A DNA stretch of 64,000 nt from assembly GCF_034092415.1 (NCBI RefSeq), contig NZ_CP139304.1, forward strand, positions 1,596,001 to 1,660,000, given 5' to 3'. This document shows positions 5,691 through 40,674 of this stretch, in pieces (within the stretch, counting starts at the first letter, position 1; every line of letters begins with the position of its first letter). The notes below the pieces were generated by a model. The model was not told where the DNA came from. It saw only the letters and a program-made list of their open reading frames with translations, and ran no database searches. Both the position numbers and the translations under genes were made by a program. This DNA is from Prochlorococcus sp. MIT 1341. Lineage in GTDB: Bacteria; Cyanobacteriota; Cyanobacteriia; PCC-6307; Cyanobiaceae.

Positions 5691-5804
5691 TTAGTCGTCG
5701 ATATTGCAAGCTAGATGACACTCTGTGAGTTCTGGGTTTGCAAGCCGATCAAGAATTCTTGCCATGTCTACTGCTGAGAGTTCTCCATCGCTAGACCATT
5801 TCTG
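5691..5804 (-). pseudogene. 3' remnant of an unrecognised gene
   Basis: The frame reads KWSSDGELSAVDMARILDR followed by LANPELTECHLACNIDD and a stop. It looks like a genuine protein tail (amphipathic helix with an EF-hand-like DGELS turn), but its upstream sequence is replaced exactly at the start of the riboswitch-like leader of the neighbouring gene. Either a remnant or a mini-gene of 25 codons from an internal ATG. Confidence 0.35.
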
Positions 5805-5805
5805 T

Positions 5806-5873
5806 ACGTTCGTCCCTTTGCTGGGATGCATGTTTTGGCAGCAGGGAACGGGGCTGTCACTTCGGAGGAACGT
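5806..5873 (+). promoter_or_regulatory. Glutamine-riboswitch-like leader (Downstream-peptide/glnA RNA type), copy 1
   Basis: The leader opens with ACGTTCGTCCC and closes with CGGAGGAACGT; these ends pair (9 of 10), so the Shine-Dalgarno GGAGG of the next gene is inside stem P1. Inside are P2 (TCCC/GGGA) and P3 (GGCAGC/GCTGTC), giving a three-way junction with conserved GGGATGCATG and CTTCGGAGGAACG. This layout matches the glutamine aptamer classes known in marine cyanobacteria, which precede short peptide genes. Class assignment is by recognition only. Confidence 0.65.
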
Positions 5874-5874
5874 A

Positions 5875-6054
5875 ATGAACACTCTCCCATTAATTCGCTC
5901 GCACATCAAACGAGCAGATCGCATTCACAAGGCTCAGTTAATTGCCACTTCCCATGGAAGTAAATTTCACGACCAGTCAGCTTTAAATGCCAATTCTGCT
6001 GCAAGAAAGGAGAAGGCCAAGCGTCTACATAACGCTCAATTAATGGCGTCTTAA
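5875..6054 (+). CDS. 59-aa basic peptide downstream of riboswitch-like leader, copy 1
   Basis: Starts at ATG 5875, 2 nt after the paired GGAGGAACGT. It is Lys/Arg/His-rich and carries two related motifs, IHKAQLIA near residue 16 and LHNAQLMA at the C-terminus, suggesting an internal repeat of a short helix. Short basic peptides under glutamine aptamers include glutamine-synthetase inactivating factors in other cyanobacteria, but I see no clear IF7 match, so function is open. A paralogue lies at 12.06 kb. Confidence 0.75.
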   Translation: MNTLPLIRSHIKRADRIHKAQLIATSHGSKFHDQSALNANSAARKEKAKRLHNAQLMAS

Positions 6055-6232
6055 AAGTTCGAATGGATTTTGGTTAATGCCTCAGACCCCTTGGTAACAA
6101 TAGCTTTTAACTGTTCATTAGCCAGTGAAGAGCAAAAGAGGTGTTTTTACTCTTGGGTCTTGGTTATTGGTTGGCTAGAAATCAACTAGGAGTCTAAGTT
6201 CGTTGGTGTAAAAAATAAGAACTGGACTCAAA

Positions 6233-7013: not shown

Positions 7014-7059
7014 TTGAATACGTCCTTAGTGATCCCCATCACTCAGTGAGTCGAAAGGA

Positions 7060-11945: not shown

Positions 11946-11994
11946 GGTAATTCTTACCAAGCCAAGATTTAGTATCCGTTGCTACCGTTTTAGT

Positions 11995-12062
11995 ACGTTC
12001 GTCCCTTGGCTGGGATGCATGTTTTGGCAGCAGGGAACGGGGCTGTCACTTCGGAGGAACGT
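11995..12062 (+). promoter_or_regulatory. Glutamine-riboswitch-like leader, copy 2
   Basis: Almost identical to the copy at 5806: ACGTTCGTCCC at the 5' end, GGGATGCATG, the GGCAGC/GCTGTC stem and CGGAGGAACGT at the 3' end. The few differences fall outside the proposed junction core, consistent with selection on the RNA. Confidence 0.65.
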
Positions 12063-12063
12063 C

Positions 12064-12243
12064 ATGAACACTCTCCCATTAATTCGCTCCCACATCAAAA
12101 AATCAGATCGCATTCACAAGGCTCAGTTAATTGCCACTTCCCGTGGAAGTAAGTTTCAGGATCAGTCAGATTTAAATGCCAATTTAGCTGCAAGAAAGGA
12201 AAAGGCTAAGCGTTTACATAACGCTCAATTAATGGCGTTTTAA
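12064..12243 (+). CDS. 59-aa basic peptide downstream of riboswitch-like leader, copy 2
   Basis: Same length and layout as the 5875-6054 peptide: MNTLPLIRSHIKKSDRIHKA, then QLIATSRGSKF, ending KRLHNAQLMAF. Substitutions are spread through the centre (about 10 of 59), so both copies have been kept as protein-coding genes for some time. Function unknown; likely responds to glutamine level if the leader is what it appears to be. Confidence 0.75.
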   Translation: MNTLPLIRSHIKKSDRIHKAQLIATSRGSKFQDQSDLNANLAARKEKAKRLHNAQLMAF

Positions 12244-12374
12244 AAGTTCGAATGGACATTTGGTCAATATCTCAGATCCCTTGAGCCTAATATTTTTTGC
12301 CAGTATGAGTCTTTGAGGGTGTTTAGACCCAAGAGAAACTTGCTTTTCTTTTCTATTAATAAAGCTTTCTCTTC

Positions 12375-34126: not shown

Positions 34127-34296
34127 GTCTTCTTGCTTTTTTTAGCAAATTTCACCATTCCTCAAGTTTAGATAGAAATTTCAGATTCGCTGAGAACAGT
34201 TGATATCACTAAAAAGGAAGTTTTCATTAGCCAATATGAGATGTCTTTTTAACCCATTGCGAAAAAGAGGTTAAAGAGCTTGGTGAGGGTTAGAGA

Positions 34297-34338
34297 CCTG
34301 CTCAAATTTTGCTGAAATTTGAGCAGGTTTCTCTCTTT
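34297..34338. terminator. Strong intrinsic terminator (first copy)
   Basis: CCTGCTCAAATTT-N5-AAATTTGAGCAGG is a perfect 13-bp stem, followed on the + strand by TTTCTCTCTTTT. On the - strand it lies downstream of the His-rich lipoprotein gene. An identical hairpin is at 39394-39437. Confidence 0.75.
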
Positions 34339-34416
34339 TCCTATTTTGACTCACTTATCTGGTTTTGAGCTTATGGGTATGTGTGACCAGGGAATTATCA
34401 GAATTAAAGACCTTTC

Positions 34417-34569
34417 TTAATGGCTATGACCGTGGTGGTCATGATCGTGATCGTGATCTTTGTGTATTCCATCAGTGGGAACGTCTTCGACTTTAGATTC
34501 GCATCCACTTAGAGAAATAGGACTGAAAATAATTGCTGCTGCAAAAAATGGGAAAAGCAGTTTTTTCAT
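34417..34569 (-). CDS. His-rich lipoprotein (50 aa), copy 1
   Basis: The signal MKKLLFPFFAAAIIFSPISL leads to the lipobox LSGC; the mature protein is only about 28 residues and ends HKDHDHDHDHHGHSH, a metal-binding His/Asp tail. It is probably a periplasmic zinc- (or other transition-metal-) holding lipoprotein. It is divergent from an outer-membrane porin, with a palindromic operator between. Confidence 0.75.
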   Translation of the reverse strand: MKKLLFPFFAAAIIFSPISLSGCESKVEDVPTDGIHKDHDHDHDHHGHSH

Positions 34570-34597
34570 GAAATCAAAAAAATAACCTCTACGTGAG

Positions 34598-34616
34598 AAC
34601 GATAACGGTTATCGTT
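34598..34616. promoter_or_regulatory. 9-1-9 palindrome AACGATAACGGTTATCGTT (Zur/Fur-type operator candidate)
   Basis: A perfect inverted repeat with a single-base centre, between the His-rich lipoprotein and porin genes. Length and GATAAC-x-GTTATC core resemble Zur/Fur-family boxes. The matching position after the second lipoprotein copy (39710-39728) has five changes that break the symmetry. Confidence 0.6.
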
Positions 34617-34651
34617 CCTGATGAACACATTCATTCCGTGTGAGGAACTAA

Positions 34652-36286
34652 ATGAAACTCTTCCAGCAATTGCTGGTGGCTCCTGCTGCATTGGGCCTTA
34701 TGGCACCAATGGCTGCACAAGCCGCAGACCTCAACATTGACGGTGTGTCTGATTATTCAGCAGCCGGCGAGCAGGTCACCAGCGTCTCTCAATTTTCTGA
34801 CGTTTATCCAACCGATTGGGCATACCAAGCTCTTTCAAGTTTGACCGAGCGTTACGGCTGTGTAGCCGGATACCCCGGTGGAACTTTCGGTGGTAACCGT
34901 TCAATCACTCGTTACGAGGCAGCTGCATTATTGAATGCATGTCTTGATCGCGTCACTGAAGTTAGTGATGACGTCAAGCGTCTTCTTTCAGAATTCGGTC
35001 CTGAGCTTGCTGTTCTTAAGGGCAGAGTTGATGGCATCGAAGCTCGCGTTGGCGACATGGCTGCAGGTCAGTTTTCAACCACTACCAAGCTAAGCGGCGT
35101 AGCAACCTTTGTTGTTGGAGCCAACGGATTCTCTGGTGATGATGCTTTTGCTAGTAGTGACACCAGCAATCCTCGCCATGCGAATGCTGGTAAAACTGAT
35201 GGCGGAACTGTTTTGAGTTATGACCTTCAGTTGGAGCTTGCAACCAGCTTCACTGGTGAAGACCTTTTGAATACTGTTCTTAGAGCAGGGAACTTTGGTA
35301 GTAACGGTTTCGGAGGGGCTGGATATACAGAACTGTCGACTTTAGAAACAGGTTTTGACAGTGGGGATCAGCTCAAGGTTGACAAGCTATGGTATTCGTT
35401 CCCTTGGGGTGATGATTTTACAGTTATCGCTGGACCTCTAGTCGGGGCGGAAGACATGCTTGCGGTTAACCCCTCCCTTTATGGTTCTGAGACCATCCTT
35501 GATGTATTTACTTATTCAGGTGCCCCTGGTACATATGGCCGTCCTTTAGGAGGTGGTGCTGGTCTCTCTTGGAATCAAGGTGATATAGATGTAAGTGCAA
35601 ACTACGTCTCTACAAATGCATCAAATAGTAATCCCGCTAGTGGAGGTGGGCTTCTCACTGAAGCTGCTGGAAGTAGCGCTATTATGCAAGTTGCCTATAG
35701 CAAGGAGAATTGGGGTGTTGCAGTTGCTTACAATTATGCCTCTACAGATCACCAGAATATCCTCGGTGGATCTACAGGGACATCTTTAGCTAATGCAGTA
35801 CACGATATCGGGCCCACTAATTCTTATAGCTTGAGTACTTGGTGGTCTCCTGCTGAAACAGGCTTAATTCCTACCCTGAGTGCAGGGTGGGGAATTAATA
35901 CAGTGGAGGATAATGATGATAGGGAGAATACGACATACGACAGTGCTACAACTCAGTCTTGGGCTGTGGGAATGGAGTGGGAAGATGCCTTTATGGATGG
36001 GAACATCTTTGGATTTGCGTTTGGTCAGCCTAATTTTGTGACTGAAATTGACTATGACTCGTCAACTAAAGACGATGATGCCGAGGATGGCAACTATGCC
36101 ATGGAATGGTGGTATAAAATTCAGGTTTCTGACAACATTACAGTCACTCCTGCAATTTTCTATCTAAGTCGTCCATTTGGTGATCAAACTGATCAACGAC
36201 AAGACACTCATGGAGGAGATGCTGGTTCAAAGGATTCCACTTTCAGAAACTTTGGTGCACTTGTGAAGACTACCTTCACTTTCTAA
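34652..36286 (+). CDS. SLH-domain outer-membrane porin, SomA/OprB type (544 aa)
   Basis: Signal peptide at residues 1-24 (LMAPMAAQA-AD). An SLH domain (SQFSDVYPTDWAYQALSSLT, RYGCVAGYPGGTF, RSITRYEAAALLNACLDRV) anchors to peptidoglycan-linked polymer; a short coiled coil (VKRLLSEFGPELAVLKGRVD) links to a 16-18-strand OprB-like barrel ending VKTTFTF. It mediates uptake of ions and small solutes across the outer membrane. The palindrome upstream suggests metal-dependent control. Its codon use looks highly expressed. Confidence 0.9.
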   Translation: MKLFQQLLVAPAALGLMAPMAAQAADLNIDGVSDYSAAGEQVTSVSQFSDVYPTDWAYQALSSLTERYGCVAGYPGGTFGGNRSITRYEAAALLNACLDRVTEVSDDVKRLLSEFGPELAVLKGRVDGIEARVGDMAAGQFSTTTKLSGVATFVVGANGFSGDDAFASSDTSNPRHANAGKTDGGTVLSYDLQLELATSFTGEDLLNTVLRAGNFGSNGFGGAGYTELSTLETGFDSGDQLKVDKLWYSFPWGDDFTVIAGPLVGAEDMLAVNPSLYGSETILDVFTYSGAPGTYGRPLGGGAGLSWNQGDIDVSANYVSTNASNSNPASGGGLLTEAAGSSAIMQVAYSKENWGVAVAYNYASTDHQNILGGSTGTSLANAVHDIGPTNSYSLSTWWSPAETGLIPTLSAGWGINTVEDNDDRENTTYDSATTQSWAVGMEWEDAFMDGNIFGFAFGQPNFVTEIDYDSSTKDDDAEDGNYAMEWWYKIQVSDNITVTPAIFYLSRPFGDQTDQRQDTHGGDAGSKDSTFRNFGALVKTTFTF

Positions 36287-39138: not shown

Positions 39139-39393
39139 TCTTTAAACGATTTTAATAAAAGATAAAGGCTTTCCTTGAAATGTCTATCTCAGATATTGAT
39201 CTGCACAATTATTGGTTCTGCAGTGGTTTGGCTAGATCTTCCTTTCAGTAATGTACAAGGGAGTTTAGATAGAAATTTCAGATTCGCTGAGAACAGTTGA
39301 TATCACTAAAAAGGAAGTTTTCATTAGCCAATATGAGATGTCTTTTTAACCCATTGCGAAAAAGAGGTTAAAGAGCTTGGTGAGGGTTAGAGA

Positions 39394-39437
39394 CCTGCTC
39401 AAATTTTGCTGAAATTTGAGCAGGTTTCTCTCTTTTC
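39394..39437. terminator. Strong intrinsic terminator (second copy)
   Basis: Same 13-bp perfect stem as at 34297 with TTTCTCTCTTTT on the + strand. Confidence 0.75.
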
Positions 39438-39513
39438 CTATTTTGACTCACTTATCTGGTTTTGAGCTTATGGGTATGTGTGACCAGGGAATTATCAGAA
39501 TTAAAGACCTTTC

Positions 39514-39681
39514 TTAATGGCTATGACCGTGGTGGTCATGATCGTGGTGGTCATGATCGTGATCGTGATCTTTGTGTATTCCATCAGTGGGAACGTCTTC
39601 GACTTTAGATTCGCATCCACTTAGAGAAATAGGACTGAAAATAATTGCTGCTGCAAAAAATGGGAAAAGCAGTTTTTTCAT
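39514..39681 (-). CDS. His-rich lipoprotein (55 aa), copy 2
   Basis: Identical to copy 1 up to the tail, which is five residues longer (DHDHDHHDHDHHGHSH) through in-frame expansion of a GTGGTGGTCATGATC unit. Start at ATG 39679-39681, as in copy 1. The upstream operator palindrome is degraded, so expression may differ. Confidence 0.75.
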   Translation of the reverse strand: MKKLLFPFFAAAIIFSPISLSGCESKVEDVPTDGIHKDHDHDHDHHDHDHHGHSH

Positions 39682-39849
39682 GAAATCAAAAAAATAACCT
39701 CTACGTGAGAGCAATAGCGATTGTCGTTTTTGTTGTGATTTTGGACAAGTCGTTTTAGTTGAACGTTCTTATATCGCTAAAAATGCCTCAAATACAATGG
39801 TTCCTGAGACCTTTTTACGGTACTGTGTTTCTATGAGTAATTAAATTTT

Positions 39850-40674
39850 ATGGGTTCTTTAGAACCAAATCTGCGGCAAAATATCAAAGGAGAGGAGCAT
39901 AAGGATTTGACGTTAGATTTCATTACCCATGTCCCAATAGCCTTTGAGCGGCGCAAGAAAAGATTATTAATAGCTTCTGCTATTTATAGATTTTATAGAT
40001 TTTCTGCTAAATTCCTATCACAGAGATTTTTGCTAGGAATAGCGCTTGAATGTGAATTCATTTTAAGAAGAATTTGCTTGGAAATTACCAATTCAGAATT
40101 AGAAGGTAGAGACTTAAGGCTTGAAAAGAAAAGAGAATTTATCCTGAAAAATATATCAAACGTGGGAAGGGTGATAGACCTTGGTTGTGCTTGTGGTACA
40201 GACACAGTTTGGCTGCATAAAATCACAGGTCGTAAGACAATAGGAATCGATCATAATTTAGAACTTATTAATACTGCTAAGAGCAGGTATAACAAAAAAG
40301 ATTTAGAGTTCTTCTGTTTAGATGCTTTACAGTTTATGAAAGAAGACCAGAGAATATTAGAACAAAATGATCTGGTATTTCTAAGCCATATAGTAGAGCA
40401 TATTGATTATCCAAGCATTATGTTAACTGAACTATCTGAATATTTCAAATATAGCTACGTAGAAGTTCCTGATTATCTTGATTCTGACCCGTTAGCACAA
40501 GCAAAGTTGCAATTGGGTTCTAGGCTTTTATATTCTGATGATGATCACACTTTTGAGTACTCAAGAATTTCGATAAGAGGTCTCTTATTGGATTGTGGAT
40601 GGAGAATAGTTGATTCAGAGTTTTACGGAGGTGTCTCAAGATTCTGGTGTAAAAGTGAAAGAAAATCTCGCTAA
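39850..40674 (+). CDS. SAM-dependent class I methyltransferase (274 aa)
   Basis: Motif I VIDLGCACGTDTVWL (about residue 106), the acidic IGIDHN strand and the NDLVFLSHIVEHIDYPSIML motif identify a methyltransferase of the UbiE/Methyltransf_11-like group. The N-terminal 90 residues are helical and basic. It stands alone after the L2 repeat; substrate unknown, possibly a glycan or lipid. Confidence 0.75.
   Translation: MGSLEPNLRQNIKGEEHKDLTLDFITHVPIAFERRKKRLLIASAIYRFYRFSAKFLSQRFLLGIALECEFILRRICLEITNSELEGRDLRLEKKREFILKNISNVGRVIDLGCACGTDTVWLHKITGRKTIGIDHNLELINTAKSRYNKKDLEFFCLDALQFMKEDQRILEQNDLVFLSHIVEHIDYPSIMLTELSEYFKYSYVEVPDYLDSDPLAQAKLQLGSRLLYSDDDHTFEYSRISIRGLLLDCGWRIVDSEFYGGVSRFWCKSERKSR

Follow-up and report, generated by a model that had tools for sequence, protein, structure and literature searches.

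A probable Zur operator between a porin gene and a His-tail lipoprotein gene in Prochlorococcus sp. MIT 1341: a proposed zinc-uptake unit

The DNA analysed, called here the window, is a stretch of 64,000 nt from Prochlorococcus sp. MIT 1341 (contig NZ_CP139304.1, positions 1,596,001 to 1,660,000). At 34598..34616 it contains a perfect 9-1-9 palindrome, AACGATAACGGTTATCGTT, to which no strand is assigned and which lies between two divergent genes. On the minus strand is the gene for a 50-aa lipoprotein (MKKLLFPFFAAAIIFSPISLSGC/ESKVEDVPTDGIHKDHDHDHDHHGHSH, 34417..34569), recognised by its signal peptide and the lipobox LSGC. On the plus strand is the gene for a 544-aa outer-membrane porin of the Som type (34652..36286), in which Pfam finds both an N-terminal SLH domain and an OprB barrel domain (1.2e-08 and 2.7e-15, respectively). 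The lipoprotein gene starts 28 bp from the palindrome, and the porin gene 35 bp from it. An 18-nt leader (34634..34651, +) directly precedes the porin ATG and is the same in all three porin genes of the genome. A consensus scan, which is a weak instrument in this group of organisms, gave no sigma-70-like promoter beside the palindrome. An earlier note, made from the letters alone, had described the palindrome, the lipoprotein, the porin and a second copy of the lipoprotein gene, and all four are confirmed in place by the sequence and its open reading frames.

Symmetry alone was rejected as evidence of function, since the window has three perfect 9-1-9 palindromes (0.38 expected with independent bases). 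The weight of AACGATAACGGTTATCGTT as evidence therefore lies in its likeness to the boxes of zinc genes and in its position. On a scoring matrix derived solely from three further zinc-gene boxes of the genome, AACGATAACGGTTATCGTT was the top-scoring site in the 64 kb, at 24.4 bits; the runner-up, at 12.1 bits, was the operator relic at the second lipoprotein copy. When up to three mismatches were allowed there was no second occurrence in the window, and 0 matches were expected. The three palindromes would be in keeping with a chance palindrome of no function, but the match to zinc-gene boxes, the position and the conservation of the site leave that explanation a negligible probability.

The box search covered the whole genome, 1,937,096 bases in one contig. 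Matches with up to three mismatches occur at three places, the operator itself included. One of the other two is the divergent promoter between znuC and znuA, and the check proposed in the earlier note, a search for the same palindrome near znuABC, is thus positive. The other precedes the gene for a CobW-like GTPase (261 aa; a P-loop was recognised by eye, and CobW_C is matched weakly, below the Pfam cut-off). A second ZnuA gene carries a weaker box of 19.8 bits, ending 28 bp before its start; at the third ZnuA-like gene, at 44 kb, the best site scores 7.3 bits and there is no box. A box of 21.1 bits is found before the CobW-like gene in the genome of a relative, which we take to be Prochlorococcus SS120. 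Some features of these zinc genes were recorded in passing. The Zur-boxed ZnuA (L002, 1502-3016) is approximately 504 aa long, and a long insert, which has His/Asp-rich stretches on either side, splits its ZnuA domain. The CobW-like GTPase gene with its Zur-type box lies in the same island, described below, in two genomes (L003; L072 near 2058-2076), where it is followed by the same two genes, phosphoesterase-like by eye.

Two FUR-family proteins are encoded in the genome, one of 135 aa and a Fur-like protein of 171 aa. The best match of the 135-aa regulator is 7NE9 (1.2e-50), the deposited structure of Zur from Synechococcus WH8102 (PMC9337993), and the four sensory zinc ligands of that protein, D77/H79/C95/H115, are all kept as D78/H80/C96/H116. 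The promoter of a flavodoxin (isiB-like) gene, the sole iron-type promoter examined, has no box (best site 3.3 bits). We read the operator as a Zur rather than a Fur site because of the boxes at the znu and CobW-like genes, the Zur relative with its sensory ligands, and this box-free promoter. Where the earlier note had proposed a unit for zinc, or for iron or nickel, the zinc reading is well supported and iron becomes less likely. The boxes of cyanobacterial Zur are similar to the classical Fur consensus, and the 171-aa Fur-like protein is also encoded, both of which would suit a Fur box by which iron, not zinc, controls the porin and the lipoprotein. Set against the matching sites at znuA/znuC, the second ZnuA gene and the CobW-like GTPase gene, and against the one iron-type promoter, this is very unlikely.

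The window porin is one of three SLH-OprB porins in the genome; its two paralogues are at 694 kb and 1050 kb. With the three-box matrix a Zur-type box is found at the window porin only, the promoters of both paralogues being box-free. Over the first 440-467 nt from the ATG the three genes are identical and their remainders differ, which suggests that gene conversion may have made the 5' ends alike. In G003, a genome of the same genus, the box, lipoprotein and porin are kept in the same divergent order. Of 400 family genomes, 2 match a strict pattern of the box combined with the porin leader; both belong to this genus, the only one in which the pairing of porin and lipoprotein was found. In the two paired genomes the operator is at most about 45 bp from the porin start, and no porin start was present in the fetched flank of the remaining 19 of 21 tabulated lipoprotein loci. 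Control of both divergent genes from one site, as originally proposed, is at the sequence level well supported by the spacing, the gene order in G003 and the conservation of the box. Porins are abundant general pores, and many genomes keep the box at the lipoprotein with no porin close by, so that the operator might chiefly serve the lipoprotein, next to a housekeeping Som porin. We consider this unlikely, given the closeness of the operator to the porin start and the retained leader in both paired genomes, and the other, box-free promoters of the two paralogues.

The mature chain of the lipoprotein, counted from the Cys, has about 28 residues and ends in HKDHDHDHDHHGHSH. G22 and C23 of the lipobox are invariant in six aligned family members; one copy elsewhere, L044, has lost the lipid Cys. 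Compared with the G003 copy, dN is 0.18 and dS 0.95, and the gene is, by these rates, under constraint between the source genome and G003. No Pfam family was matched at 0.01, and hence neither ZinT nor any other known periplasmic zinc-binding family. A scan of named genomes gave one match, in an unrelated Bacteroidales. A viral source was rejected because viral contigs held no relative of the protein.

A profile built from six members and run on 400 family genomes gave 25 match rows in 23 of them, or in 22 without the spurious match in G163 (L058), which is inside a 380-aa frame. With that row and three others having less than 60 bp upstream (L006, L007, L056) left out, 21 genes remained, both copies of the window genome among them. 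A box of at least 9 bits lies within 60 bp upstream of 14 of the 21, compared with 15 of 1425 control 60-mers taken from the same loci with operator sites masked and scored with the same matrix from the three other boxes of the source genome; the upstream regions of the other seven scored below 9 bits. In-frame stops interrupt 5 of the 21 genes, and in some further copies the start codon is gone or no longer in frame, so the lipoprotein appears dispensable in several relatives. The copies with stops (L043, L052, L054, L057 and L060) belong to genera g79 and g11, where loss of the gene is, by its sequences, ongoing.

A lipoprotein with such a signal would face the periplasm by default, and the outer-leaflet position suggested in the earlier note found no support. 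His/Asp-rich tails bind several divalent metals. The protein might on that account be a periplasmic sink for excess metal, or handle another metal such as nickel, cobalt or copper, rather than take part in zinc uptake, and the Zur of WH8102 can indeed also activate the storage gene bmtA (PMC9337993). Against this, the box is common to uptake genes, which that Zur represses when zinc is plentiful (PMC9337993), and we judge a sink or another metal to be rather improbable.

The second lipoprotein gene (39514..39681, -) was defined from its ORF and the family alignment, and encodes 55 aa with a His tail five residues longer. It lies in a duplicated block delimited by alignment of its two copies, which are given no strand: 34165..34598 and 39262..39710. 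The block comprises a copy of an island-specific repeat at its left edge (34160..34305 and 39260..39402, both + and located by repeat search), a hairpin of 19 pairs with a T-rich tail after it (34292..34332, +), the lipoprotein gene and its leader. The copies are identical over 434 bp except that 15 bp are inserted among the His-tail codons of copy 2. An operator relic, AGCAATAGCGATTGTCGTT (39710..39728, no strand), has 14 of 19 bases as in the operator, and its five differences are all A/G. All five mismatches of the block fall inside the operator, beyond which similarity stops. The next gene at copy 2 encodes a methyltransferase (at 39850); this bears out the earlier statement that the second copy has no porin partner. 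A sigma-70 promoter for copy 2, spotted by eye, was dropped as unsupported by the scan.

The likeness of relic and operator is too high for chance, and the neighbouring block is without substitution. Slow decay of the copy-2 operator was rejected, as evenly spaced mismatches would give this pattern with p of about 6e-8 by hand arithmetic, taking 434 identical columns and all five mismatches in the last 18. The pattern points instead to a tract of copying or gene conversion that ends at the operator. Of the loss of symmetry claimed for the duplicate, the asymmetry of the relic holds, and a copying or conversion boundary fits better than gradual loss. The simplest account would be that the duplicate is older and that its gene part has recently been homogenised by conversion, in a tract that stops at the operator. 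That such homogenisation takes place in this genome is suggested by the identity of the porin 5' ends. Alternatively, selection might have acted against the copy-2 operator.

The block lies in an island marked by the same repeat. Approximately 150 bp long, it occurs at 28 places in 98 kb, 27 of them on the + strand, spanning 2348-59068 of the window and genome positions 1568302-1593343; it is also present at L071 and L072. All 10 copies that a second genome has within 40 kb share one orientation, and 19 of 40 genomes searched contain the repeat, the source genome included. Positions 32-116, approximately, of the repeat model also match their own reverse complement. An integron-like array was considered as the origin of the duplicate and rejected: the repeat is oriented, yet the sole tyrosine-recombinase match is about 240 kb past the window end (at 1897 kb), and four folded repeat copies were no more stable than shuffled sequences. 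A Glutamine-II riboswitch is matched at the gathering score at 5804-5858, and 5795-6067 recurs at 11984-12256 with 93% identity. Further direct duplications in the island, of approximately 200-300 bp and 83-98% alike, are found at 7034/48708, 25367/29290, 8621/42765 and 6741/14952.

MspD of Mycobacterium smegmatis differs from the present porin in its unrelated porin type and membrane. Zinc starvation induces it, as does loss of Zur; of several near-identical porin paralogues it is one that is placed under Zur, with ZnuABC behind (PMC13098993). The window porin would follow the same logic. A divergent lipoprotein does not figure in the available part of that account, which cites Barnett 2014 (Metallomics) for a zinc route through a porin and ZnuABC in Synechococcus. 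In WH8102 the Zur regulon includes bmtA, the znu genes and neighbours whose function is unknown; a single box lies between the divergent znuA and znuC and overlaps the -10 elements of both (PMC9337993). The present locus has in common with that system a Zur relative whose sensory ligands are the same, and a similar divergent geometry of its operator. It differs in that the main text of the WH8102 study mentions neither porin nor lipoprotein. SYNW2224 and SYNW2227 of WH8102 are annotated as possible Som porins, the type of the window porin. They changed in a zinc/phosphate/cadmium proteome, in which zinc was linked to their response no more closely than phosphate and cadmium were (PMC3865332). 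The exoprotein ZepA of Anabaena is more abundant in a zur mutant and mediates zinc uptake; it is extracytoplasmic with zinc-binding histidines, as proposed for the lipoprotein, but it is larger and folded, with an H-X2-9-H-F/Y-H motif, and is not a short lipopeptide (PMC10957091). In the literature searched, mainly non-subscription and in part as excerpts, there was no account of a Prochlorococcus unit of porin, Zur and lipoprotein, and PMC9337993 was the only paper retrieved on a Prochlorococcus Zur box and zinc. Zur-regulated porins are already known, and an operator common to a Som porin and a His-tail lipoprotein may be a new arrangement of them.

The box, its likeness to zinc-gene boxes, its conservation, the Zur relative and the box-free porin paralogues lead us to regard AACGATAACGGTTATCGTT as probably a Zur operator for both divergent genes, whose products would aid zinc uptake. 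When zinc is plentiful, Zn-Zur would occupy the operator and shut both promoters. When zinc drops, Zur would leave, and the porin and lipoprotein would be switched on along with the CobW-like GTPase, znuABC and the second znuA. More zinc would then cross the outer membrane through the porin, and the His/Asp tail of the lipoprotein, presumably at the periplasmic face close to the pore, would bind it and hand it to ZnuA or act as a buffer for it, the two proteins thereby feeding ZnuABC. A wider proposal is possible but doubtful: zinc would enter low-light Prochlorococcus-type cells by a two-part unit of the outer membrane, in which a Zur-dedicated porin paralogue and a very short His-tail lipopeptide, acting as a zinc funnel at the periplasmic mouth of the pore, replace TonB receptors. 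In this proposal recurrent gene conversion would keep porin and lipoprotein sequences uniform, and the operator, lying between the tracts, would preserve distinct regulation.

The success of oligotrophic-ocean strains at ultra-low zinc has been called unknown in its basis (PMC9337993). The small lipoprotein family, present in 22 of 400 family genomes, gives a test set for the idea of a Zur unit. If one Zur box governs both a porin paralogue and a minimal lipoprotein, this would be a compact and testable answer to how such growth is achieved, and the arrangement suggests a route for zinc through the outer membrane of small marine cyanobacteria.
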